Part shown: piece after piece, positions 2,170-17,858 of the stretch
Layout of the letters: each line of letters opens with the position of its first letter
Position numbering within the stretch: the stretch's first letter is position 1
Source of the DNA: Kitasatospora sp. NBC_01266
GTDB lineage: Bacteria; Actinomycetota; Actinomycetes; Streptomycetales; Streptomycetaceae
DNA: 64,000 nt
Assembly (NCBI RefSeq): GCF_036242395.1
Contig: NZ_CP108458.1
Coordinates: forward strand, 5,022,001 to 5,086,000
Direction of reading: 5' to 3'
Notes under the pieces: generated by a model
The model's input: the letters and a program-made list of their open reading frames with translations, nothing else
Databases searched by the model: none
What the model was told of the DNA's origin: nothing
Program-made: the position numbers and the translations under genes

Positions 2170-4773
2170 ATGATGACGTACGCGCAGGCGCAGGACCTGG
2201 CGGCGGAGTGGATCAACGGCGGGGTGCCGCACTTCCAGCAGCGCGAGGTGCGGGTGCGGGAGTTCGACCTCGGGTTCGTCTGCTGGGCGGAGGACCGGGA
2301 CGGCGGGCCCTCCTCGGACGGCGGGGCGGTCAAGCTGGTGATCGCCCGGGACACCGGGGCGAGCACGCTCTGGCCCGCGCTGCCGGTCAACGAGGTGGTC
2401 CGGCGCTACGAGGAGGCCTACGGGCGGCCCGCCGGGGCGACCCCGTCCGGGCTGGCCAAGCCGCTGCCCGGACCGGTCGAGGCGACCTCCTTCCTGCTCA
2501 GCCCGCCGCAGTGGGTGCTGGACGCCGGAGCGGCGGCGCTCGCGGCCGAGGCCGAGCAGCTGGGCCAGGCGCCGGTGGCCGCCGCGCCCACGACGCCCAC
2601 GCCATCGACGATTCCCGCGCCGGCCACGACGCCTGCGCCCTCGACGACGCCCACGCCCTCGACGATTCCCGCGCCCGCCACGGCGCCCGAGCCCGCCCGG
2701 CTGACCGCGCCGCCGATCTCCGACCGGCCGGCCGGGGACGGGCCCACCATGCTCGCCCCGCCGCCCTGGGAGCTGGCGGAGCACGGCGAGGAGCCGGACG
2801 CCGCCCCGCGGACCCCGCCGGAGGCGCGCACGGTCCGGATGCCACCGCCGACCGAGCCGCCGGTCGCCGACCAGCCGCCGGTCGCCGACCAGCCGCCAGT
2901 CGCCGACCAGCCGCCGGCGCCGCCCGCGTTCCCGGAGCCGCCCGCCACGCCGGTGGGCTGGAACCCGCCGCCCTTCCCGGTCCGCGCTCAGCCGGCCGAG
3001 GTGCCCCCCGCGCCGCCGGTCACCCCGCCGGCCCCGGCCACGCCGGTGGGCGGGTACGCGCCGACCATGCTCTCCGCCGACGGTCCGCCCGGTCTGCTGG
3101 GCCTGACCGGGGCGCCGACCCCGGCGCCGTCGCCGGTTGCCCCGTCGCCCGTCGCCCCGCCGCCGGCCCCCGGGCCCGAGCAGGGGCAGGGTCAGGGCCA
3201 GGGTCAGGGCGTCGCGTACGCGCCGACCATGCTCTCCACCGATGGCCCGCCCGGTCTGCTGGGTCTGCCCGGCGCGCCCGGCACCCCTGGCGCGCCGGTG
3301 CCGCCGCCCGCCGTGGGGGGCCGCGGCGGGAGCGTCCCGCCGCCGCCCCCGCCGGTCGCCCTGCGGCACGGAGCCGCCCAGGGCGGCGCGCCCGTGCCGC
3401 CGCCCGCGGTCGGTGGCCGCGGCGCGAGCTCCCCGCCCCCGCCGCCGCCCGGCGGGCTGCTGCACGCGGGTGGCAGCGGCGCCGAGCCGCACGCCACCCC
3501 GGGGGGCCGGGGCGCCGGCAGCACGCCGCCGCCTCCGCCGCCCAGCGGTCTGCGGGGCGCGCCCGAAGCCGATGAGCTGGCCTCCGCCGCGACCAGCAAG
3601 GCGGCCAGGCCGCAGCGCCCGGGTGCGGAGGGCGCCCCGCAGCAGGGCGCCGGTGTCGCGCAGGCCGCGACCCAGCTGGCCTCGGCCGTGCCGGGCGGCG
3701 GTCCCGGCCTGCCCGGCGCCGCCGCGCCGGTCCCCGGGTTGCCGCCGCAGGGCGCCCCGGTCCCGCCGGGTGTGCCCACCGTCGGGCCCGGCTACCTGGC
3801 CGTGCTCAGCTACCGCGCCCCGGACGGCTCCGAGCAGAAGGTGATGCAGCGCAGCGAGCCCGGCACGCCGCACCCGGAGTGGAAGATCCTCCAGGAGCTG
3901 CGCCGCCTCGGCGTGCCCGCCGAGCAGGTACTGGAGCTGTACACCGAGCTGGAGTGCTGCGACCTGCCGGGCGGCTACTGCGCCCGGCTGGTCGCCTCCT
4001 CCTGGCCGAACGTCCGGATCACCCACACGGCCGCGTACGGGCGCGAGCAGCAGGCCCGGCAGGCGGGCATGGCCCACCTGCTCAACCACCTGGACGAGCT
4101 GCACCAGCTGGCGGCGGGCCCGCGTCGGCCGCGCCCGCTGCGGGTGCCGCTGCCCGCGCCCGGGACGCTGCCGCCCCGGCCGCCGGTGCCGCCGCAGCAG
4201 CTCGGGGCCGAGCTCGCGCAGTTCTTCGGTCCGGGCGTCTTCCGCTACGAGCAGCGCGCGGTCGCAAGGGCGGGCGTGCCCGAGGTGGTCGCGCAGACCC
4301 TGGTCTGGGCGGGTCTGCCGACCAACTTCGGGCCGTTCTTCTGGGCGCACACCCCGGATAACCGGCCGATCCCGACGCTGGCCGAGCTGGCCGCCGAGCG
4401 CGGCCGGCCGGCCGGGCCCGACGCGGGCGGCTACCTGGTGCTCGGCAACGACTACGGCCGCCAGCTCTGTGTGCAGTACGGCACAGCGGCGGTGGTCGCG
4501 GTGGATCTTGATGGGGGAATCTCCCGCCCGGAGGGCGGGGGAGGAACCGGGGAGGCCCCGCGCTTCGTCAACAGTGGTGTGCCGGAGTTCGTCCGGTCGC
4601 TCGCCCTGCTCGGTCGGATGTGGCCGCTGCGTTACGGACTGACCCCGGATCAGGCCGGGCGCTGGACCGCGGACTTCCAGGCCGAGCTGGCCGGGCTCGA
4701 CCCGGCGGCCCTCCAGGCACCCGACACCTGGTGGGCGGTCCTCCTGGAGCAGTTCTGGGACGGCCTGCTCTAG
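2170..4773 (+). CDS. Multidomain protein: Imm35/YrhB-like, Pro-rich linker, nucleotide deaminase-like, SUKH-4
   Basis: An 867-residue protein, start ATG 2170 (a second ATG follows at 2173) behind GGAGG. Residues 1-95 resemble YrhB/Imm35-type immunity domains (VREFDLGFVCWAED, ARDTGASTLWPALPV). Residues about 110-540 are an extremely Pro/Ala/Gly-rich linker with internal repeats: three VADQPP units, two APTMLS-DGPPGLLGL blocks and poly-Pro tracts. Residues about 540-640 have HPEWKIL and ELECCDLPGGYC, the HxE and Cys-rich halves of nucleic acid/nucleotide deaminases. Residues about 665-867 match SUKH-4 (YEQRAVARAGVPE, LPTNFGPFFW, GYLVLGNDYG, RFVNSGV, MWPLRYGL). No signal peptide. Inferred role: an intracellular deaminase held by its own immunity-type domains and tethered by a flexible linker. 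The substrate is unknown. Confidence 0.8.
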   Translation: MMTYAQAQDLAAEWINGGVPHFQQREVRVREFDLGFVCWAEDRDGGPSSDGGAVKLVIARDTGASTLWPALPVNEVVRRYEEAYGRPAGATPSGLAKPLPGPVEATSFLLSPPQWVLDAGAAALAAEAEQLGQAPVAAAPTTPTPSTIPAPATTPAPSTTPTPSTIPAPATAPEPARLTAPPISDRPAGDGPTMLAPPPWELAEHGEEPDAAPRTPPEARTVRMPPPTEPPVADQPPVADQPPVADQPPAPPAFPEPPATPVGWNPPPFPVRAQPAEVPPAPPVTPPAPATPVGGYAPTMLSADGPPGLLGLTGAPTPAPSPVAPSPVAPPPAPGPEQGQGQGQGQGVAYAPTMLSTDGPPGLLGLPGAPGTPGAPVPPPAVGGRGGSVPPPPPPVALRHGAAQGGAPVPPPAVGGRGASSPPPPPPGGLLHAGGSGAEPHATPGGRGAGSTPPPPPPSGLRGAPEADELASAATSKAARPQRPGAEGAPQQGAGVAQAATQLASAVPGGGPGLPGAAAPVPGLPPQGAPVPPGVPTVGPGYLAVLSYRAPDGSEQKVMQRSEPGTPHPEWKILQELRRLGVPAEQVLELYTELECCDLPGGYCARLVASSWPNVRITHTAAYGREQQARQAGMAHLLNHLDELHQLAAGPRRPRPLRVPLPAPGTLPPRPPVPPQQLGAELAQFFGPGVFRYEQRAVARAGVPEVVAQTLVWAGLPTNFGPFFWAHTPDNRPIPTLAELAAERGRPAGPDAGGYLVLGNDYGRQLCVQYGTAAVVAVDLDGGISRPEGGGGTGEAPRFVNSGVPEFVRSLALLGRMWPLRYGLTPDQAGRWTADFQAELAGLDPAALQAPDTWWAVLLEQFWDGLL
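2850..3560 (+). repeat. Repeat-rich Pro linker in the SUKH-4/deaminase gene
   Basis: This coding stretch is built of short degenerate repeats: three copies of a VADQPP hexapeptide near 2868-2915, two copies of an APTMLS(A/T)DGPPGLLGL block at about 3058-3110 and 3220-3275, QG dipeptides at 3181-3210, and three PPPAVGGRG/poly-Pro units at 3300-3540. Such tracts usually form disordered, length-variable linkers. Confidence 0.75.
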
Positions 4774-4788
4774 CCGCCCGGCGGCTGG

Positions 4789-4822
4789 GGCCGGGGCAGC
4801 ACCGGTGGGTGCGGCCCCGGCC
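4789..4822 (+). terminator. Hairpin after SUKH-4/deaminase gene
   Basis: A 9-base GC stem (GGCCGGGGC / GCCCCGGCC) lies just past the stop codon at 4773, separating this gene from the DivIVA-like gene. There is no T-tract, as usual in high-GC actinomycetes. Confidence 0.45.
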
Positions 4823-4838
4823 GGCGGTGTCGCTTCCT

Positions 4839-4867
4839 TTGGCTTTCCGAACGATCTGCGCAAAATA
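4839..4867 (+). promoter_or_regulatory. Candidate promoter of the DivIVA-like gene
   Basis: TTGGCT at 4839-4844 and AAAATA at 4862-4867 are spaced by 17 bases in a locally AT-richer stretch about 85 bases upstream of the start. This fits a housekeeping-sigma promoter. Read by eye only. Confidence 0.4.
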
Positions 4868-4951
4868 GGTCAAGAAGACCGCAGGTACCGAGCACCTGAT
4901 CGAGCCCAGCCAGGCACCGAGCCCAGCCGGCCACTGAGGGGAAGACAGTAG

Positions 4952-6313
4952 ATGAGCGACGCCATCCCGTCGTACGGCTTCACCGCTGCCCGGAAGGGTT
5001 ACGCGCCAGAGCAGGTCGACCGCGCGCTGGGGGCGCTGACCGCCCAGCGGGACCACGCCTGGCACCGGCTGAGCCAGCTCGGTGCCCAGATCCGTGAGCT
5101 GGAGACGGCCCTGGCCGCCGCCCGGCAGGCCGCCGCCGAGGCCCCCGAGCCCGACTACAGCACGCTCAGCGAGCAGGCCGGCGACCTGATGGCGATCGCC
5201 GAGAACGAGACCCGGCAGATCCGCGAGAAGGCCGAGCGGTTCAGCACGCAGACCCGCGACGCGGTGGCCGAGGCCGGCCGGACGCGGCAGAGCGAGGCCG
5301 CCGCCTACGCCACCGCCACCCGCGCCGAGGCCGACGAGGCCGCCCGCCGGACCGAGGTGAGCACCCGCGCCGCGGCCGAGAAGCTGCGCACCGACGCCGA
5401 ACAGGACGCGCGTGCCTGCCGGGACGCCGCCACCGCCGAGTCCGCCCGGATCCGGGTGGCCGCCGCCGAGGCGGGCGAGCGGGCCGAGGCCAAGCTGGCG
5501 GAGCTGCGCCGCGACGCCGACGAGCGGTTCGCCGCCGAGGAGGCCGCTGCCGCCGCCGAGGACGCCAAGATCTCGCTGGCCGCCGAGCACCGCCTCAAGG
5601 AGGCCGAGCAGCACCGGGAAACCACGCTCGGCGTGGTCAAGCAGATCGACACCGACGCCCAGGCCAAGGCCGACCAGCTGATCGAGACCGCCCGCCGCGA
5701 GGCCGAGCAGATCAACGCCCGCACGGCGGCCGAACGGGCCGAGTTCGACAAGCGGCTGGAGACGGTGCAGACGCACCTGGACCACATCAAGGGCACGCTG
5801 GCCTCGCTGACCGGCAAGGCGGTCGGGATGATCGAGCCGGGCCAGGTGCCCGCTGCCGCGCTGGCCGCTGCCGCGCCCGCCGCGCCCGCGCTCGACTCGG
5901 AGGCGGACACCGGTGAGGTGCCGCTGCCGGCCGCCCCCGAGGTGGCTGTCCCCGAGGCGGTCGCCGCCGACGCGCCGACCACCGTGCTGCGGATGCCCGC
6001 CGAGCTGTTCGAGGCCACGGTCGCCCAGCCCCAGATCGCCCAGCCGCAGCCCGCCCAGCCGCAGGTCGACCCGCGCACCGCCCTGCGCGCGGCGGGCGCC
6101 GCCCAGCCGCCGGTGCCGCCCCGCCCGGCCACCCCGCCGCCGGCCCCGCCGCAGGCGCCGAGCGACCCGGCGGCGGAGACCACGCTGATGCCCCGGATCG
6201 CGGGGGCGCCGCGCAACGCGGACGAGACCGCGGTCATCCCGAAGATCGTGATCATCGACGACGAGGTCGCCCTGGACTCGCTGCCCAACACGGTGGGACG
6301 TCGGCGGAGCTGA
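4952..6313 (+). CDS. DivIVA-like coiled-coil protein (often annotated cellulose-binding protein)
   Basis: A 453-residue protein, ATG 4952 with GAGGGGAAG upstream. The N-terminus (GFTAARKGYAPEQVDRALGAL) is a DivIVA-type membrane-targeting segment. Residues about 25-290 form a long Ala/Glu/Arg-rich coiled coil with heptad character, as in the Streptomyces DivIVA/Scy/FilP cytoskeletal families. The C-terminal 150 residues are Pro/Ala-rich and disordered. They carry several threonine-centred motifs (TTVLRMP, ETTLMPRI, ETAVIPKI). The name cellulose-binding protein is common for this family in Streptomyces genomes but I see no carbohydrate-binding domain. The likely role is a polar or filamentous scaffold. 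Its place beside the SUKH/deaminase gene and the similar Thr motifs there suggest a link, which is inference. Confidence 0.75.
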   Translation: MSDAIPSYGFTAARKGYAPEQVDRALGALTAQRDHAWHRLSQLGAQIRELETALAAARQAAAEAPEPDYSTLSEQAGDLMAIAENETRQIREKAERFSTQTRDAVAEAGRTRQSEAAAYATATRAEADEAARRTEVSTRAAAEKLRTDAEQDARACRDAATAESARIRVAAAEAGERAEAKLAELRRDADERFAAEEAAAAAEDAKISLAAEHRLKEAEQHRETTLGVVKQIDTDAQAKADQLIETARREAEQINARTAAERAEFDKRLETVQTHLDHIKGTLASLTGKAVGMIEPGQVPAAALAAAAPAAPALDSEADTGEVPLPAAPEVAVPEAVAADAPTTVLRMPAELFEATVAQPQIAQPQPAQPQVDPRTALRAAGAAQPPVPPRPATPPPAPPQAPSDPAAETTLMPRIAGAPRNADETAVIPKIVIIDDEVALDSLPNTVGRRRS

Positions 6314-6919: not shown

Positions 6920-10537
<3,618 letters not shown>

Positions 10538-10542
10538 TCCCC

Positions 10543-10582
10543 GGGCAGTTGGGCGGCGGAGCACGGCGCCGCCCAACTGCCC
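10543..10582 (+). terminator. Terminator after mfd
   Basis: A perfect 16-base stem (GGGCAGTTGGGCGGCG at 10543-10558, complement at 10567-10582) with an 8-base loop, starting 6 bases after the mfd stop. Confidence 0.8.
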
Positions 10583-10784
10583 GCCCGACTGCCCGCCCAG
10601 CGCCGCCGCTCGCGGGAGCGGCGCGTCAGTCCAACGGGCGCTCCGCAGAGCACTGCTGACGGTGGGTCAGCCGTGTTCGCCGTCACTCGTTCGGTGCAAC
10701 CTCCGGGCAACGGCCGTCCCGGCTCTCTATTCTCATGTCACGTCAGGAGCCAGTCGCCACCGCAGCCCCGCCCGGAGGCCCAGC

Positions 10785-11450
10785 GTGATCCGCAGCCACT
10801 CCCTCCGCCGCTCCGCCCAGCTCGCCCGCCGCCGGCTGCGCCGTGCGCTGCCCGCCGTCGGCGTGCTGCTCGCGGCGGCCGTGCTGACCGGTTGCGGGGG
10901 TCGGCCGGTGCAGGCCGGGGCGGCGGCGGTGGTCGGCCCCGACCGGATCACCGAGTCGGCGGTGCAGGCCCGGGTGGCCGAGTTCCGCGCGCAGGCGGCC
11001 CGGTTGCCGAGCGGGCAGTACCAGGAGCAGGCGGGGCTGGTGGGGGCGACCGTCTCCGGGATGATCTTCAGCGAGGTGGTCGAGCACGCGCTGGCCGAGC
11101 ACCGGCTGACCGTCAGCGACACCGAGATCGCCCAGGCGCGGGCCGACCAGGCACAGGCCTGGGGCGGCGAGGCGGGGCTGGAGCAGATGCTGCTGCTCAA
11201 GCACGCGGTGCCGGCCGGCGAGATCGACACCTTCCACCGCGAGCAGATCGGCCTGCAGAAGCTGGCCGCGCTGGGCGGGCAGCAGATCGGCACCACGGAG
11301 GGCAACAAGACGGTGCACCAGCTGCTGGCCGAGGCCGCCGGCGAGCTCAAGGTGACCGTCAACCCGCGCTACGGCAGCTGGGACGCGCAGCAGGCGGTGC
11401 TGGAGAGCCCGAGCGAGGAGTGGCTGCCGCAGTCGGGTGCCGCCGCCTGA
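10785..11450 (+). CDS. SurA N-terminal domain lipoprotein (extracytoplasmic chaperone-like)
   Basis: A 221-residue lipoprotein, GTG 10785 behind GGAGG. The N-terminus is Arg-rich, followed by a hydrophobic segment and the lipobox LTGC (about residues 33-36), so it should be a lipid-anchored protein outside the membrane. The mature part (GPDRITESAVQARVAEFRAQ, QLLAEAAGELKVTVNPRYG) matches the SurA/PrsA N-terminal chaperone fold. There is no parvulin prolyl-isomerase domain, so a chaperone rather than isomerase role is likely. This gene commonly sits between mfd and mazG in Streptomyces. Family assignment is good. Clients are unknown. Confidence 0.85.
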   Translation: MIRSHSLRRSAQLARRRLRRALPAVGVLLAAAVLTGCGGRPVQAGAAAVVGPDRITESAVQARVAEFRAQAARLPSGQYQEQAGLVGATVSGMIFSEVVEHALAEHRLTVSDTEIAQARADQAQAWGGEAGLEQMLLLKHAVPAGEIDTFHREQIGLQKLAALGGQQIGTTEGNKTVHQLLAEAAGELKVTVNPRYGSWDAQQAVLESPSEEWLPQSGAAA

Positions 11451-11454
11451 GCGG

Positions 11455-11469
11455 TAGGTTCGAGGGGTG
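11455..11469 (+). promoter_or_regulatory. -10 box for leaderless mazG
   Basis: TAGGTT at 11455-11460 ends six bases before the GTG at 11467, with no ribosome site between, so transcription probably begins at the start codon. Confidence 0.55.
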
Positions 11470-12495
11470 GACATCTCGACGGACACCCCGAACAGCGCTG
11501 ACGCCGCCAAGCTGACCCTGCTCACCACCACCCACCGGGTGGCTCCCGGCCTGCTCAGCTGGCCCGCCTGGGAGGCGCTGCGCGCGGCGCCGCTGGTGCT
11601 GGCCGCCGATCCGGCGCACCCGCAGCTGCCCGCGCTCGCCCGGGCCGGGGTGACGGTCGAGCTGCTGGCCCGCGGCAGCGCCCCGGCGCTGGCCCGCACG
11701 CTGGTCGAGCGCGCCCCGGTGCTCTTCCTGGGCAGCCCGGACGGCGACCCGGGGCTGACCGAGGCGCTGGCCCGGATCGCGGTCGAGGAGGCGGGCCGGG
11801 CGCCGGAGATCGAGCTGCTGCCCGGCTCCTACGACCTGCCGGGGGCCCGGCTGCTCGACCTGGTCGCGGTGATGGACCGGCTGCGCTCGCCCGGCGGCTG
11901 CCCCTGGGACGCCGAGCAGACCCATGCCAGCCTGGTGAAGTACCTGGTCGAGGAGGCCTACGAGCTGGTCGAGGCGATCGAGGAGGGCGACCGGGCCACG
12001 CTTCGCGAGGAGCTGGGCGACGTGCTGCTGCAGGTCTTCTTCCACGCCCGGATCGCCGAGGAGCACCCCGAGGACCCGTTCTCCATCGACGAGGTGGCCG
12101 GGGCGATCGTCGACAAGCTGATGTACCGCCACCCGCACGTCTTCGGGGACTCCGACGCCGCCACCACCGACCAGGTGGAGGCCAACTGGGAGGAGCTGAA
12201 GGCCGCCGAGAAGCAGGACCGCGAGTCGGTCCTGGACGGTGTGCCCTCGGGGCTGCCGGCGCTGGCGTACGCGGCGAAGCTGGTCTCCCGGGTCCGCCGG
12301 GCGGGCTTCACCGGGGTACCCGACGCGCCGTACGCGCTGCCCGCCGAGCTGACCGGGCAGACGGTCGGCGCGTTGCTGCTGGCGGTGGTGCAGCGTGCCC
12401 ACGACGCCAGGGTGGACCCGGACGCGGCGCTGCGGGAGGCCGCGCGCGGTTACCGGGCCGCGGTACGGGCCGCCGAGGGGCTCGCCGCCGACTAG
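11467..12495 (+). CDS. mazG: Nucleoside triphosphate pyrophosphohydrolase MazG
   Basis: A 342-residue protein. The MazG domain (about residues 135-250) shows GGCPWDAEQTH, EEAYELVEAIE and EELGDVLLQVFFHA. The EExxE-type acidic residues bind Mg and hydrolyse (d)NTPs to monophosphates, clearing aberrant nucleotides and modulating ppGpp. The first 130 residues are a less conserved extension seen in actinobacterial MazG that resembles part of a tetrapyrrole-methylase-like fold (LLTTTHRVAPGLLSWPAWEAL). The GTG start at 11467 has no Shine-Dalgarno sequence but a TAGGTT box immediately upstream, pointing to a leaderless mRNA. It lies 16 bases after the SurA-like gene. Confidence 0.92.
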   Translation: MDISTDTPNSADAAKLTLLTTTHRVAPGLLSWPAWEALRAAPLVLAADPAHPQLPALARAGVTVELLARGSAPALARTLVERAPVLFLGSPDGDPGLTEALARIAVEEAGRAPEIELLPGSYDLPGARLLDLVAVMDRLRSPGGCPWDAEQTHASLVKYLVEEAYELVEAIEEGDRATLREELGDVLLQVFFHARIAEEHPEDPFSIDEVAGAIVDKLMYRHPHVFGDSDAATTDQVEANWEELKAAEKQDRESVLDGVPSGLPALAYAAKLVSRVRRAGFTGVPDAPYALPAELTGQTVGALLLAVVQRAHDARVDPDAALREAARGYRAAVRAAEGLAAD

Positions 12496-12537
12496 GCCCT
12501 GGCGGCGGCCCCGGTCCTTGGCGCCCGGGGCCTGGTG

Positions 12538-12954
12538 CTACGCGGGCTGCTGGTGGGCGTGCGCCTGCCGCTGCGGCGGGACGCAGGCGCCGATCGCCTC
12601 GCCCAGCGGGTCCAGCAGCTCGGCGAGGCGGTGCAGCTGGCCGGGCAGCTCGTCCATCGCGACGATCCGCTCGCCGTCGGGGCCGGCCACGCAGAACAGG
12701 TCGATCGGGCCCAGGTGCTTCTCGGTGGTGTCGACCAGGGCGGCGATGTCGCTGGGCTGGTGGATGTCGGACCTGACCCCGATCACCGGGCAGCCGGTCC
12801 GGTCCAGGGCGGCGGCCAGGTCCTCGGCCACCCCGGTCCGGGGGTCGGCGATCAGCATGCCGGCGGCGCCCGCCGCGGCGAACCGACGGGCCGGCCCGTC
12901 GCCGTCACCGCCGTTGAGTACCGCGATGACCACCACTGCCCCGGTGACTCGCAT
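12538..12954 (-). CDS. Truncated SDR-like Rossmann protein
   Basis: A 138-residue protein with ATG 12954 and a strong ribosome site (GGGAGGAG), so it is probably expressed. Its first 95 residues look like the N-terminal half of a short-chain dehydrogenase: beta strand VVVIAVL, a glycine stretch GGDGDGPARRFA where SDRs have TGxxxGIG, then GVRSDIHQPSDIAALVDTTEKHLGPIDLFCVAG. The catalytic Ser-Tyr-Lys half is missing and the remaining 40 residues are unrelated. It therefore cannot be a normal dehydrogenase. It may be a decayed SDR or a nucleotide-binding regulator. It is convergent with mazG. Confidence 0.6.
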   Translation of the reverse strand: MRVTGAVVVIAVLNGGDGDGPARRFAAAGAAGMLIADPRTGVAEDLAAALDRTGCPVIGVRSDIHQPSDIAALVDTTEKHLGPIDLFCVAGPDGERIVAMDELPGQLHRLAELLDPLGEAIGACVPPQRQAHAHQQPA

Positions 12955-13754
12955 GGCCTGCTCCTCCCTGGGGGCGCTGCCGCACTGCCGCGCCCGCCAA
13001 CCACGTATCGGAGGATCGTAGGCTTCTCCTGACCCTCCGCAACAGGGATTACCCGTCAGGTGACCAGGCTCACTCCTCCCGGGGACCGGATACCGTCAAG
13101 ACATGCCGGACCGCCCCGATTCACCGCCACTCCCGCCCTCGCCGCCCCTGTTCACCTGGGAATTCGCCGCCGACCCCTATCCGGCGTACGCCTGGCTGCG
13201 CGAGCACGCCCCGGTGCATCGGACCACCCTGCCGAGCGGGGTTGACGCCTGGCTGGTCACCCGCTACCCGGATGCCAGGCAGGCGCTGGCCGACGCCCGG
13301 CTCTCCAAGAATCCGGCCCACCACAGTGAGCAGGCGCATCGCACGGGGCGGGTGGGGATCCCGGGGGAGCGGCAGGCCGATCTGATGACGCACCTGCTGA
13401 ACATCGACCCGCCCGACCACACCCGGCTGCGCCGCCTGGTCTCCAAGGCCTTCACCCCGCGCACTGTGGCCGAGTTCGAACCCCGGGTGCAGCAGCTGAC
13501 GGACCGGTTGATCTCCGGCTTCGCGGCGCGCGGCTCGGCCGACCTGATCCACGAGTTCGCCTTCCCGCTGCCGATCTACGCGATCTGCGACCTGCTCGGG
13601 GTGCCGGCCGAGGACCAGGACGACTTCCGGGACTGGGCCGGGATGATGATCCGGCGCGGCGGCGGCCCGCGCGGCGGGGTGGCCCGCGCGGTCAAGCGGA
13701 TGCGGGCGTACCTGGCGGAGCTGATCCACCGCAAGCGGGCCGAGCCGGGCGACG

Positions 13755-13762
13755 ACCTGATC
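13755..13762. other. Left attachment-site core (inferred attL)
   Basis: ACCTGATC at the exact point where P450 homology stops. The right junction has ACCTCATC at 17347-17354 in the same reading phase. This is a candidate crossover core. The call is inferred from the break in P450 homology. Confidence 0.45.
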
Positions 13763-13790
13763 CTTGCAAGCCGTCTGACCTGCGAAAACT

Positions 13791-13833
13791 CACGGTCGAC
13801 CCTCGCTCGCAGCCCGAGCGAGGGTCGACCGTG
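13791..13833. terminator. Perfect 19-bp stem terminator at left end of the element
   Basis: CACGGTCGACCCTCGCTCG and its exact complement flank a 5-base loop (CAGCC). It sits between the P450 fragment and the convergent intact P450 and would serve both. In a circularised element it would lie right at the end of the recombinase frame. Confidence 0.85.
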
Positions 13834-13837
13834 ATCA

Positions 13838-15073
13838 TCAAGGTGATGCTGGCGTGAACTCGACCGGGAGTTCCCGCAGGCCACGCATGATCAGACCGCC
13901 GCGCCAGCGCAGCTCTGCCGGGTCCGCAGCGAGCTGGAGATCCGGCAGTCGGGTGAGCAGGCTGGAGAGCGCCACACGGCCCTCCAGGCGGGCCAGCGGG
14001 GCGCCGATGCAGTAGTGGATCCCGTGGCCGAAACCGAGGTGCGGATTGTCGGCGCGCGCGAGGTCCAGGGTGTCCGGCTGACCGAACCTGGCCGGGTCGC
14101 GGTCGGCGGCGGCGAGTACGACGAGAACTGGGTCGCCTGCCGAAACAGCCTGGCCGCCGATTTCGAGCGGCTCGGTGGCATAGCGCCAGGTGGCCAGCTC
14201 CACCGGGCCGTCGTAGCGCAGCAGTTCCTCGATCCCCGTATCGAGCAATCGGGACTCTCCATCTGCAAGGGCAGCCTGAAGGAGCGCCAGCTGGGGCGGA
14301 TTCCGAAAGAGCGCAAGTGCGCCATTGCCGATCAGATTAATGGTCGTCTCAAACCCTGCGAACAAAAGTACGAAGCACATCGCAACGGCCTCGTTCTCGG
14401 TGAGGTGCTCGCCGTGGTCGCTGGCCCGGATCAGACCGGAGATCAGGTCGTCGCCCAGGTCGGCCCGCTTGCGATGAATTAGGTCTGCCAGGTACGCACG
14501 GATGCGCTTGACAGCCCGGCCCACCCCGCCGCGCGGGCCGCCGCCGTGCCGGATCATCATGCCAGCCCAGTCGCGGAAGTCCTCCTGGTCCTCTTTCGGA
14601 ACGCCGAGGAGGTCGCAGATCGCGTAAATCGGCAAGGGGAAGGCGAACTCGTGGATCAGGTCCGCCGAACCGCGTGCGGAGAATTCCGAGAGCAGACGGT
14701 TCGCGATGCTCTGCACCTGGGGTTCAAACTCTGCAACTCGAGCCGGTGTGAACGCTTTGGAGACCAGCCGGCGCAGCCGGGTGTGGTCCGGCGGGTCGAT
14801 GTTCAGCAGATGTGTCATCAGATTGGCGCTGCGCTCGCCCGGAATTCCGGTCTTCCCCTTGGCGTGTGCCGACTCGTCGTGGTGCACCGGGTTCTTCGAG
14901 AGCCGGCCGTCGGCGAGCGCCTGGCGTGCGTCGGCGTAACGCGTCACGAGCCAGGCTTCGACGCCGCTCGGTAGCTGGGCCTTGTACACAGGTGCATGCT
15001 CACGCAGCCACGCGTACGCCGGGTAGGGGTTGGAGGCGAACCCCCAGGTGAAGAGTTCAGGCCGATCAGACAT
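13838..15073 (-). CDS. Intact cytochrome P450 carried by the inserted element
   Basis: A 411-residue soluble bacterial P450 monooxygenase, ATG 15073. All hallmarks are present: LLNIDPPDHTRLRRL, the I-helix LLFAGFETT (oxygen activation), the K-helix EELLRYDG, and the heme loop FGHGIHYCIG with the thiolate ligand at about Cys355. It matches both halves of the disrupted P450 closely along the whole length and supplies the roughly 29 residues missing there. The decamer GGATACCGTC just before the start also precedes the broken gene, so the promoter region is homologous. Its codons are less GC-biased than the chromosome's. Inference: it replaces the activity lost by insertion. Substrate and redox partners are unknown and no ferredoxin gene is adjacent. 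Confidence 0.93.
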   Translation of the reverse strand: MSDRPELFTWGFASNPYPAYAWLREHAPVYKAQLPSGVEAWLVTRYADARQALADGRLSKNPVHHDESAHAKGKTGIPGERSANLMTHLLNIDPPDHTRLRRLVSKAFTPARVAEFEPQVQSIANRLLSEFSARGSADLIHEFAFPLPIYAICDLLGVPKEDQEDFRDWAGMMIRHGGGPRGGVGRAVKRIRAYLADLIHRKRADLGDDLISGLIRASDHGEHLTENEAVAMCFVLLFAGFETTINLIGNGALALFRNPPQLALLQAALADGESRLLDTGIEELLRYDGPVELATWRYATEPLEIGGQAVSAGDPVLVVLAAADRDPARFGQPDTLDLARADNPHLGFGHGIHYCIGAPLARLEGRVALSSLLTRLPDLQLAADPAELRWRGGLIMRGLRELPVEFTPASP

Positions 15074-15296
15074 ACCTCGACGGTATCCCGCTGCCGATGT
15101 TCGGAGGCCATCAGCCCTCTGACACCCCGCGCTACCACGATGTGAGGACGTGCCAGGTCGCCGGGGAGGATCCTGTTCGGTCATTTCCCTGTACACGGTC
15201 GGCCTGACGATCCGACAGATATACTCGCCCCGAACATGGGTGACCCCGACGGCGCTGCGAACGCCCCGGGGTCCGGCCACTCGGGCAAGGAGTGAC
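15074..15296. promoter_or_regulatory. Divergent promoter region between cargo P450 and recombinase
   Basis: The two genes of the element are transcribed apart from this 223-base region. TATACT at 15220-15225 is a near-consensus -10 box about 70 bases before the recombinase start. No good -35 box is seen. The P450 side carries GGATACCGTC immediately before its ATG. Confidence 0.45.
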
Positions 15297-17858
15297 ATGG
15301 CTAATTCAACCCTGCCTGGACAGCGTGTCGCAAGCCGGGGCGCGGCGCGCCAGAAAGCTGGACTGCCGGTTCGGATCGCCATCTACGTCCGCGTCTCCAC
15401 CAGGAATCAGGTCGAAGGCTCCGGTCTGGATCAGCAGGAGAAGGATGCGAGGGCGTGGATCGAATTCTGGTTCCGCGACGTTCCTTTCGAGATCGTCGGA
15501 GTCTTCGTCGATGACGGAATCTCCGGGAAGATCGACAACCGTCGCGACCAGGTGAAGCTCAAGGCAGCGATTGCCGCAGGCGACGTCGACCTCGTCATCT
15601 CCCAGAAGCTCGACCGGTTCGGGCGCACCATGCACGATATCCAGCGCTGGGTGTGGGAGATGAACGACCAAGGGCTGCGCGTCGTCACGGCAGACGGCCG
15701 TATCGACTCGCAGAACGAGATGTTCGAGCTGGTGCTGGCGCTGCTGGCCTACATGGCGCAGCTGGAGCACGAGCTGATCTTCTCGCGGACGTTCAACGGG
15801 CGCGAAGCGAAGCTCGACGCCGGCGGCTGGGTGGCCGGACCGCCGCCGTTCGGTTTCATGCTGGAAGGGATGGGCTCGAAGGAGGGCTCCCGGATCGCCC
15901 TGTCCGAGGATGAGTGCCGAGTGCTGGCGATGGGCGCCGGGTCCATGATCGACCAGGGCATGAACTACTCCGAGACCATCGATCTCCTCAACGAGAAGGA
16001 GATGTTCACCCGCAGCGGACGGCCGTGGACGGTGGGCAACTGGATCAAGCGCATCAGTCACGAGGCGATCCTGGAGTGCTGCGTCACCTACCGGAAGAAC
16101 AACGGGTGGAAGAACGGTACGAAGCAGGACGAGGACGGCAAGGCTCTCTACGGAGAGGCCAAGCGCATTCCGATGCCGGAGGTCTTCACACCTGAGCGCC
16201 GTGAAGCGTTGAAGGACGTGATCGCCAAGCTCTCCATCGAGTCGCGTCGCGCGAACTCGGAGTATCCGCTGTCCGGCCGTATCGACGGTCACTGCGGAAA
16301 CGTCTACATCGGTGGCGGTGTCCGTGGTGGCGGTACCCGTGTCTACCGGTGCAAGGGCGTCGATGACGGTTGCGACGACGTGTACCTCGATGCGACCGAC
16401 ACCGAGAAGGCGGTGTGGGCGCAGCTGACGCCTCTCCTGAACGATCCGAAGCGGATCGAGATGCTCGCCAAGGAGTGGGTGGAGTCCCTCCCCGGGACGA
16501 AGGAGAAGCACGACGAGCGTGTGATGACGCTGCGCGCTCAGGTGGAGGCGAAGGAGGATGAGATCGCCGACATCCTCCTCATGTGTCACAAGAACAGGCT
16601 GCCGGACCGGGTGCGAGAGAAGTCCCTCTCCAAGCCCAACAGGGAGCTGATGGCTCTCCAGGCATCCCTTCAGGAGGCCGAGGCATGGCTGGAGGACTAC
16701 GAGTCGACACAGCAGGAGGCGAAGGAGATGGAGGAGTTCATCTCTTCGGCGCGCCTGCGGGTGGGGGATCTGACTCTGGCGGAGAAGTCGGAGCTGTTCG
16801 CGATGTTCGATGTCCGGGTGTCAGCCGGGAACCACCGGTTCAAGAAGCGGTCGGGTAAGCCGTGCCCGGTGACGGAGTGGCACAAGGGGACGCAGCACCC
16901 GGTGCCGGCCGACATCGACGAGGACGACTGGGTGATGGTGAAGGAGATCCTCTCGGCCTACGTGGCGAAGTCGTCGTTCACGAAGACGACGATCGACCTG
17001 CGGCTGGCCTTCAACGGCATGTTCTGCCGCCTGCGCACCGGGACGCCGTGGAACGAGATGACGGATGCGTTCGGCAACCCACAGCGGATCCGTGAGCGGC
17101 AGCTGACCTTCTTCCAGCGTGGCGCGTGGAAGGCGATCGTGGAGATGCTGAACCAGCGCGGTGGTGGGACGCCGGTGTACGTGGCTCCGACGATTCCTCC
17201 GCTGAAGATCACGGGGCGCGTGGCGCGGTCCCTGTGGGTGGTGGTCGGTGAAGAGGGGCCGGTGGAGGCCCCGGAGGCGCCCGCGAGTGTAGGGCCGAAG
17301 GATGGCCCGCATGCTGTGCTCGCCGCGAGTTTTGAGACGACTGTCAACCTCATCGGCAATGGCATGTACACGCTGATGAACCACCCGGAGCAGCGCGCCC
17401 GGCTGCAGGAGTCGCTGCGCCGCGGCGAGCGGGAGCTGCTGACCACCGCCGTCGAGGAACTTCTGCGCTACGACGGCCCGGTGGAGCTGGCCACCTGGCG
17501 GTTCGCGACCGCGCCGCTGACCATCGGCGGGGTGCACATCCCGGTCGGCGATCCGGTGCTGGTGGTGCTCGCCGCGGCCGATCGCGACCCGGCCAGGTTC
17601 GGCCAACCGGACACCCTGGACCTGGCCCGCAGGGACAATCCGCACCTCGGCTTCGGGCACGGCATCCACTACTGCATCGGCGCCCCGCTGGCCCGGTTGG
17701 AGGGGCAGGCGGCACTGGCCACCCTGCTGACCAGGCTGCCCGACCTCGACTTCGCCACCGAGCCGGCGGAACTGCGCTGGCGGGGCGGCCTGATCATGCG
17801 TGGGCTGCGTGAACTGCCGGTCTCGTTCACGCCGGAGTCCTCGGCCGGCACGTCCTGA
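15297..17858 (+). CDS. Large serine recombinase, reading in frame into the P450 C-terminal half
   Basis: ATG 15297 follows a perfect AAGGAG site. An upstream in-frame start at 15150 is unlikely. The open frame is 853 codons, of which about the first 680 belong to the recombinase. The resolvase/invertase catalytic domain has IYVRVST with nucleophile Ser34, then QKLDRFGR and AYMAQLEHELI. A recombinase domain follows (GGWVAGPPPFGF). Next come a degenerate zinc ribbon (GHCGNVYIG...YRC...GC), a coiled coil (about residues 405-490) and an extra C-terminal segment (LRLAFNGMFCRLRTGTPW, about residues 560-580) like the start of IS5-type/DUF4096 transposases. Such enzymes integrate circular DNA at attB/attP sites without a host factor. 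There is no stop before the P450 part, so a chimeric protein would be made unless translation ends otherwise. Confidence 0.92.
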   Translation: MANSTLPGQRVASRGAARQKAGLPVRIAIYVRVSTRNQVEGSGLDQQEKDARAWIEFWFRDVPFEIVGVFVDDGISGKIDNRRDQVKLKAAIAAGDVDLVISQKLDRFGRTMHDIQRWVWEMNDQGLRVVTADGRIDSQNEMFELVLALLAYMAQLEHELIFSRTFNGREAKLDAGGWVAGPPPFGFMLEGMGSKEGSRIALSEDECRVLAMGAGSMIDQGMNYSETIDLLNEKEMFTRSGRPWTVGNWIKRISHEAILECCVTYRKNNGWKNGTKQDEDGKALYGEAKRIPMPEVFTPERREALKDVIAKLSIESRRANSEYPLSGRIDGHCGNVYIGGGVRGGGTRVYRCKGVDDGCDDVYLDATDTEKAVWAQLTPLLNDPKRIEMLAKEWVESLPGTKEKHDERVMTLRAQVEAKEDEIADILLMCHKNRLPDRVREKSLSKPNRELMALQASLQEAEAWLEDYESTQQEAKEMEEFISSARLRVGDLTLAEKSELFAMFDVRVSAGNHRFKKRSGKPCPVTEWHKGTQHPVPADIDEDDWVMVKEILSAYVAKSSFTKTTIDLRLAFNGMFCRLRTGTPWNEMTDAFGNPQRIRERQLTFFQRGAWKAIVEMLNQRGGGTPVYVAPTIPPLKITGRVARSLWVVVGEEGPVEAPEAPASVGPKDGPHAVLAASFETTVNLIGNGMYTLMNHPEQRARLQESLRRGERELLTTAVEELLRYDGPVELATWRFATAPLTIGGVHIPVGDPVLVVLAAADRDPARFGQPDTLDLARRDNPHLGFGHGIHYCIGAPLARLEGQAALATLLTRLPDLDFATEPAELRWRGGLIMRGLRELPVSFTPESSAGTS
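17331..17858 (+). pseudogene. Cytochrome P450, C-terminal half, cut off by the element
   Basis: From FETTVNLIGNG onward the frame is a P450 C-terminal half with EELLRYDGPVELATW (K-helix), GDPVLVVLAAADRDP and FGHGIHYCIG (heme Cys), ending in LRELPVSFTP. It pairs with the N-terminal half at 13103-13762. The first 11 codons use TTT, ACT, CTC and AAT, unlike the high-GC codons that follow, and resemble the carried P450, so the true junction may lie near 17354-17363. It has no start of its own and is joined in frame to the recombinase. Confidence 0.88.
17347..17354. other. Right attachment-site core (inferred attR)
   Basis: ACCTCATC, matching ACCTGATC at the left junction in 7 of 8 bases and in the same codon phase (Asn/Asp-Leu-Ile). 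Confidence 0.4.

Follow-up and report, generated by a model that had tools for sequence, protein, structure and literature searches.

How does a bacterium come to hold a cytochrome P450 gene broken in two, with a complete homologue of that gene lying in reverse between the pieces? The window analysed here, a stretch of 64,000 nucleotides of Kitasatospora sp. NBC_01266 (5.02-5.09 Mb of an 8.57-Mb, two-contig genome), contains such a locus. A single P450 gene is cut in two between mazG and the rpf (Transglycosylase-LysM) and eno genes, and the gap is filled by a gene for a large serine recombinase (LSR) and an intact P450 gene. We conclude, with a probability of about 0.8, that the insert is a minimal integrative element which replaces whole the gene that it destroys, and that this has led to repeated in-place gene replacement. 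The features of the locus, by position in the window, are these:

13088-13097, plus strand: GGATACCGTC, a promoter-like box (TACCGT) immediately 5' of the native P450 start
13103-13762, plus strand: N-terminal part of the native P450, 82% identical in amino acids to the carried copy and 95% identical in nucleotides to the native gene of a relative (L094)
13763-17330: the insert (3568 bp), with two recognisable genes, those of the carried P450 and the LSR
13763-13782, no strand: left junction zone, in which attL is not recognisable
13783-13834, minus strand: terminator-like 20-bp hairpin with U tract, 3' of the carried P450 (fold z -8.4)
13838-15073, minus strand: the carried complete P450 (411 amino acids), inverted relative to the native halves
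15079-15088, minus strand: GGATACCGTC, a promoter-like box before the carried P450 start
15297-17330, plus strand: the LSR, with a Resolvase domain, a weak zinc ribbon and a C-terminal DUF4096/IS5-like domain; its frame is open to 17858
17331-17858, plus strand: C-terminal part of the native P450, which starts at the FETT codons and is fused in frame to the recombinase

An earlier note on this DNA, made from the sequence alone, had described a P450 split by about 3.6 kb, an insert with only a recombinase and an opposite-strand intact P450, and a match of that copy to both broken halves. All of this held. The halves and the 3568-bp insert are as given above, no third gene was recognised within 13763-17330, and the carried P450 is 82% identical to the native N-half (169/207 amino acids) and 77% identical to the C-half (134/175). 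The carried P450 and LSR genes are divergent, their starts being separated by 223 bp.

The uninterrupted gene that the earlier note expected in relatives lacking the insert proved to be the common state. A P450 match at E 1e-110 or better was found in all 70 genomes of the genus, and in 66 of these the locus has a single native-orientation P450 and no insert, in the order mazG (plus), orf137 (minus), P450 (plus), rpf (plus), eno (plus); among the 66, no mazG was found in L097 or L109, and the L114 contig stops short of it. One of the 66 native genes (L049 of G012, near position 9600) has a 1-bp frameshift relative to a 98% identical relative, which is either a sequencing error or a recent loss. 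The insert is present in the remaining four genomes: the window, K. mediocidica (L017), 'Streptomyces' tateyamensis (L018), in which the recombinase has an internal deletion, and L048, from which the recombinase is gone. The native gene is in pieces in all four. Its N-part reaches codon ~211 in the window, 75 plus a short stretch in L017, 37 in L018 and 48 in L048, and its C-part begins at FETT in the window and L017 and at codon ~324 in L048, with about the last 20 codons (by reading) left in L018.

The same layout occurs in the sister genus (probably Streptomyces). When 391 genomes of the order were searched, 14 others had recombinases of 31-36% identity, and in six of these (L129, L130, L131, L133, L135 and L137) the order is mazG (plus), P450 (minus), recombinase (plus), rpf (plus), rpf (plus), eno (plus), the inverted P450s being 77-83% identical to the carried copy of the window. 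In a survey of the sister genus the P450 locus was matched in 189 of 199 genomes. We read 80 of the 189 loci, roughly every second row among the matches listed, hand-picked rather than random: 75 had the P450 on the eno strand with no recombinase and five (L151, L182, L183, L215 and L226) were inverted. Orientation in L161, where the contig ends before eno, was judged by rpf. In L182 native fragments flank both sides (codons 6-70 and 371-409). This locus also has ~2.4 kb (3667-6060) with a helix-turn-helix/DUF5753 regulator, placed after the native N fragment and before the inverted P450, which may be extra cargo or a later insertion.

The inverted loci thus number 15 (four in Kitasatospora and 11 in the sister genus). 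The carried P450 is open in 15/15, and the LSR looks complete in seven, is damaged or truncated in four and was not found in four. The damaged genes comprise two with internal deletions (L018 and L183), one that is interrupted (L133) and one without a matching N-terminus (L129). The earlier note had named P450 genes standing as old neighbours without the recombinase as evidence against insertion. Inverted intact P450s without a recombinase do exist (L048, L151, L215 and L226), in the derived form only; native fragments are present in L048 and L215 and none in L151 or L226. Given these fragments, the absence of the recombinase from L048 and L215 looks like later loss.

The element and its host have separate histories. 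In 150-bp intervals the window and L017 are 91-99% identical (mostly 95-99) within the element and 58-93% (mostly 80-92) in the flanks. Synonymous divergence (dS) between the two is 0.111 for the carried P450 and 0.102 for the recombinase versus 0.387 for the host mazG, and the comparison of the window with L048 is reversed (carried P450 0.491, mazG 0.235). The native halves of the window track the host, being 95.3% (N) and 92.5% (C) identical to L094, a close empty-site relative, and the native C-half of L017 is 92.9% identical to its empty-site sister L076. We built a host tree from eno and mazG (69 rows, a subset) and a P450 tree of 71 proteins (also a subset), with L215 and L226 in neither. 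The host tree rejected a clade of the window plus L017 (p-AU 2.6e-4) and a clade of all four carriers of the genus (1e-57). It required 12 changes for 13 carriers, at least nine of them forced by starred branches. Shuffled labels gave a mean of 12.1 changes, with 291 of 500 shuffles as low as observed; hence, the distribution of the carriers over the host tree looks random.

The four loci with an inverted P450 and no recombinase might be taken to mean that the inverted gene is an old duplication into which a recombinase was inserted later. This explanation is already contradicted and retains next to no credibility, since close relatives of the carriers have a single native-orientation gene, the carriers need those 12 changes, and the carried and native copies are different lineages. 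Another route would be movement of the element between species by homologous recombination via the flanking P450 halves or the locus, the LSR being a relic. In its favor, the odd left junction, where target sequence is missing, is almost the same in the window as in L017, and recombinases are often broken. However, a few single-base differences in the window suggest that host-lineage bases return ~10-25 bp beyond either end of the element, so that homologous transfer would need two very close crossovers, and three separate recombinase clades occupy the site. We therefore consider this route distinctly unlikely.

The P450 tree resolved the natives of the genus (support 95), its four carried copies (100) and nine inverted copies of the sister genus (97) as groups. 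The 13 carried copies as one clade were not rejected and had the higher likelihood (p-AU 0.604), and in nucleotide comparisons the carried copy of L135 joins the four of Kitasatospora. The P450 trees thus point to one or two old element-borne lineages as the source of the cargo, and to no local copy. GC content at third codon positions (GC3) is 0.79-0.92 in 13 carried copies and averages 0.938 in 122 natives, of which the lowest has 0.789 (Mann-Whitney p 1.5e-8, relatedness ignored). The four carried copies without a recombinase have GC3 of 0.87-0.96, and those with one a mean of 0.82, as expected if the former ameliorate.

For the carried P450, dN/dS among the four carriers of the genus is 0.045-0.08; for the recombinase it is 0.28. 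Such purifying selection, together with the fixed or near-fixed differences that set the old carried lineage apart from the natives (some near the I-helix motif), would also fit a cargo P450 that is useful through an altered activity. The element would then spread by offering a better or different P450, with breakage of the native gene incidental. We consider this unlikely, though deserving of some weight: in 15/15 inverted cases the cargo is a close homologue (~77-87% identity) of precisely the gene that was broken, has the same kind of upstream box and lies at the same locus.

That box is the decamer GGATACCGTC, which the earlier note had reported as shared by the two P450 genes of the window. 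It does precede both starts, but is not private to the pair, being common before natives. A TA-n3-T box at leaderless spacing before an in-frame start is present in 15/15 inverted copies, 64/65 natives of the genus and 68/75 natives of the sister genus, and in 0.7-3% of shuffled upstream DNA. For the stricter TAC[CG]GT the values are 15/15, 62/65 and 42/75, and 0.1% or less in shuffled DNA. We read the spacing as that of the putative -10 box of a leaderless gene. As the box is widespread before natives, GGATACCGTC is a conserved promoter-like element and no sign of recent copying, and as the same type of box precedes all 15 inverted copies, the carried gene seems to bring a promoter of its own, predicted to be of the native type. 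At the other end of the gene, L017 has a 16-bp version of the hairpin in which the substituted bases are still paired. We infer that both promoter and terminator would function.

The insertion point is seen best on the right. Four of the five right junctions printed (the window, L017, L129 and L131, representing two LSR clades) resume the host P450 at TTYGARACGAC, the FETT codons; the element sequence preceding FETT differs between LSR clades, and the fifth junction (L135) is too decayed to read. The FETT codons belong to the I-helix oxygen-binding motif. As expected of a site-specific integrative element, the site is empty in relatives and independent insertions share one target, the exact point being readable in four copies only. 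The window LSR frame is without its own stop and reads in frame through the native C-half, giving 853 amino acids from the ATG. Entry of the LSR frame into the host P450 at FETT was seen in the window (15297-17858), L017, L129 and L131. In the first two of these no stop interrupts the fused frame before the P450 ends, and a recombinase-P450 chimera could result.

The in-frame fusion of the LSR to the C-half, and the presence of the homologous point in inverted orientation in the intact copy, raised the idea of an invertible P450 switch, in which the LSR would invert the segment between the FETT regions and so swap C-terminal halves. No swap is seen, since the native C-halves track the host and the carried C-part tracks the element. 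Moreover, most carriers have an eroded C-half or none, and the native N-half remnants in five carriers fit insertion, leaving the switch highly improbable.

The right end of the element and the native site, compared as a shared att arm, were not significantly alike (shuffles 0.10-0.12) and the candidate was rejected. We do not claim recoding of the att site in the carried copy: the low GC3 near FETT in the window (0.64) is not shared by all carriers, and GC3 drops further in another stretch. Residues -7, -5 and +5 from FETT are among the eight most differentiated of 411 alignment columns (carried versus native), and the att region as a whole is not elevated, with 168 of 386 sliding windows scoring as high. 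Five natives (L050, L090, L161, L167 and L191) have I-helix MCFV, like most carried copies, and not MAFI (117/122 natives have I there), which is either the ancestral state or an altered target site. These natives have the carried-like residues at -7 and -5 and so give the change no direction, another reason to leave recoding unclaimed.

The LSR of the window matches Pfam Resolvase PF00239 (E 2.2e-26), and RVST (R32-T35) is invariant in an alignment of six relatives; Ser34 within it is presumably the catalytic serine. The zinc ribbon scored 25.0 bits, slightly below the 25.3 cut-off. The Recombinase family PF07508 gave no match in the window LSR, was above cut-off in L137, L130, L132 and L139, below it in L136, and was not listed for L182. 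A DUF4096 (IS4/5 transposase-type) domain spans residues 541-614 of the window LSR (15297-17309) and occurs also in several relatives, including some at other sites, an unusual pairing. Among the 15 phage matches listed, the integrases of phiHau3-like Streptomyces phages were best covered (31-34% identity over 88-96% of the length), and all phage matches were below 60% identity. No plasmid record covered 80% of the window LSR, and a pattern scan of viral contigs found no relative. An origin of the LSR from a phage, plasmid or virus was therefore rejected, these searches having given no close recombinase.

P450-site recombinases form three clades (A, B and C), which are interleaved in the tree with recombinases from other sites (L133 was entered as 115 residues and L018 as its deleted copy). 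The earlier note had expected copies of this recombinase to sit at a P450 gene in company with a P450, and those found at 50% identity or more all do so (A 3/3, B 6/6, C 3/3), the clade B count including one differing layout (L231). A clade-C search of 199 sister-genus genomes gave as its sole match a 40% relative at a different site. Related recombinases at unrelated sites without a P450, which the note had held would speak against its proposal, exist, but only at 27-40% identity; in 18-20 kb around 12 of them (L132, L134, L136 and L138-L146) no P450 of this type was found. These 12 led us to reject a rule that such recombinases generally carry copies of their targets.

Several other sites were seen along the way. 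In L141 the related recombinase adjoins ispG (GcpE), with dxr on the opposite side by eye, and in L142 it lies beside an amidohydrolase gene fragment; no target copy was seen at either. In L144 short stretches of 50-59 amino acids are duplicated at 76-90% (1-2021 and 10911-11147). One lies where a recombinase of 28% identity ends, with others ~9 kb off, and this may be a further target whose end is supplied.

As to the enzyme, synteny (the mazG-P450-rpf-eno locus) suggests that the target and cargo P450s are CYP107U1-like. In S. coelicolor SCO3097 is rpfA, SCO3098 is a LysM homologue of rpfA and SCO3099 is CYP107U; SCO3096 is, we assume, eno. The order P450-rpf-rpf-eno found in sister-genus loci fits this neighbourhood of P450 beside rpf genes and eno, and in the window the identities of the Transglycosylase-LysM and enolase genes were confirmed. 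Solved-structure matches of the carried P450 include 5cje, TamI, PikC and CYP107A1. The title of a paper on CYP107U1 reportedly ties the gene to sporulation and antibiotic production.

The series of events that we favor is as follows. An element of ~3.5 kb would consist of the LSR and a complete opposite-strand P450 copy having its own promoter and terminator. The LSR would direct insertion into the I-helix codons (between ...LLFAG and FETT...) of one conserved CYP107U-like P450, by attP x attB recombination. Insertion would destroy the resident P450 and the carried copy would take over its function, such that the lesion is tolerated. Later selection would retain only the carried P450, with erosion of the recombinase and native halves. 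As read from sequence, the anatomy, the common target gene, the repeated independent acquisition and the survival of the carried gene while the rest is lost are established. We infer further that the LSR itself performed the insertion, that a circular form of the element exists, that the carried enzyme shares the function of the native enzyme and so compensates for the lesion, and that the native gene is important enough to need replacement. If it is, an insertion that lacked a spare would come at a cost to the host.

Several observations weigh against this picture. Plain attP x attB serine integration loses no target bases, and at the left junction the target is missing up to FETT: ~65 bp in L017 and ~87 bp in the window, or 22-29 codons by eye. 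The missing target lies at nearly the same place in these two carriers, both of which have vertical flanks. Either attL was deleted in each copy, the reaction was unusual, or short-tract recombination moved the element. The native N-half is eroded in all carriers and gone in most. The sequences contained no circle or cargo-free attP, and no excision factor was recognised. In the free P450 tree the four Kitasatospora carried copies stand beside the natives of their own genus (support 93), so that a single cargo lineage is allowed and not established. A single origin of the design likewise appears unsupported, the P450-site clades being interleaved with other-site recombinases; hence, the design either has several origins or is old and was followed by switches of target. 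Finally, in L231 (G591, 7281-10617) a clade-B-like recombinase (50% identity) lies directly downstream of a native-orientation P450. A further ~3.6 kb precedes rpf there, and beyond the recombinase no P450 fragment is present. We treat this locus as an exception.

How does the proposed element compare with known systems? According to PMC10111431, when an integrase targets a gene, attP usually holds replacement sequence and the recombinant target stays functional, the exceptions usually being cases of regulated gene integrity. Our element resembles replacement-end elements (those in icd and tRNA genes, as described in PMC10111431) in site-specific insertion within a gene that brings function-preserving sequence. 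It differs in that theirs lies in attP and leaves the target functional, whereas here a separate, whole, inverted gene with its own promoter box accompanies a destroyed target. Insertion does not restore the target: both native parts lack the other half, and the intact copy is inverted. Like regulated gene integrity (as treated in PMC10111431), it breaks a host gene, but here a spare copy is supplied and no excision factor was recognised, and the decay of the native halves makes restoration impossible in most carriers. The recombinase is like the integrases of phiHau3-like phages, and no phage gene was recognised in the element. Actinomycete integrative and conjugative elements (ICEs) share the serine recombinase and insertion into a protein gene (PMC3218068), but no replication or transfer gene was recognised in the 3.6-kb insert. 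More broadly, no ICE, prophage or satellite genes (transfer, replication or virion) were recognised in 13763-17330.

A related recombinase offers a contrast. In L136 (G368, sister genus, 8118-14687) a recombinase of 32% identity lies between intact and start-less copies of an ABC-2 permease gene. The intact permease there has the same orientation and follows its ATPase gene, as in classical end replacement, and L136 is probably an element supplying the replacement end of another target.

The closest design is synthetic. Home-and-rescue gene drives insert into a valued gene and bring a diverged rescue copy, with homing by a nuclease and repair in diploids. The insertion and diverged rescue copy are alike here, where the agent is a serine recombinase in bacteria. 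A literature search found no description of this element in titles or abstract openings, and the odds are fair that it merits a separate class. Tentatively, and at somewhat short of even odds, we suggest that this is a natural home-and-rescue class, an old element-borne P450 lineage with three diverged LSR clades that target the same gene in two genera.

If so, each insertion would make the host dependent on the copy carried by the element, and by that dependence the element could not be lost. The recombinase would decay, and an inverted, low-GC3 replaced gene would remain. Important developmental genes could be overwritten in place with no benefit to the host. In this very small element a full spare of the broken gene takes up a third of the length, and the locus offers a replicated natural case of insertion-driven orthologous gene replacement, at one site in two genera. 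Addiction by replacement becomes testable in common laboratory Streptomyces, and recombinases that target a defined point within a highly conserved gene would be useful integration tools. There is also a warning, that a gene in its expected place may be a mobile substitute.

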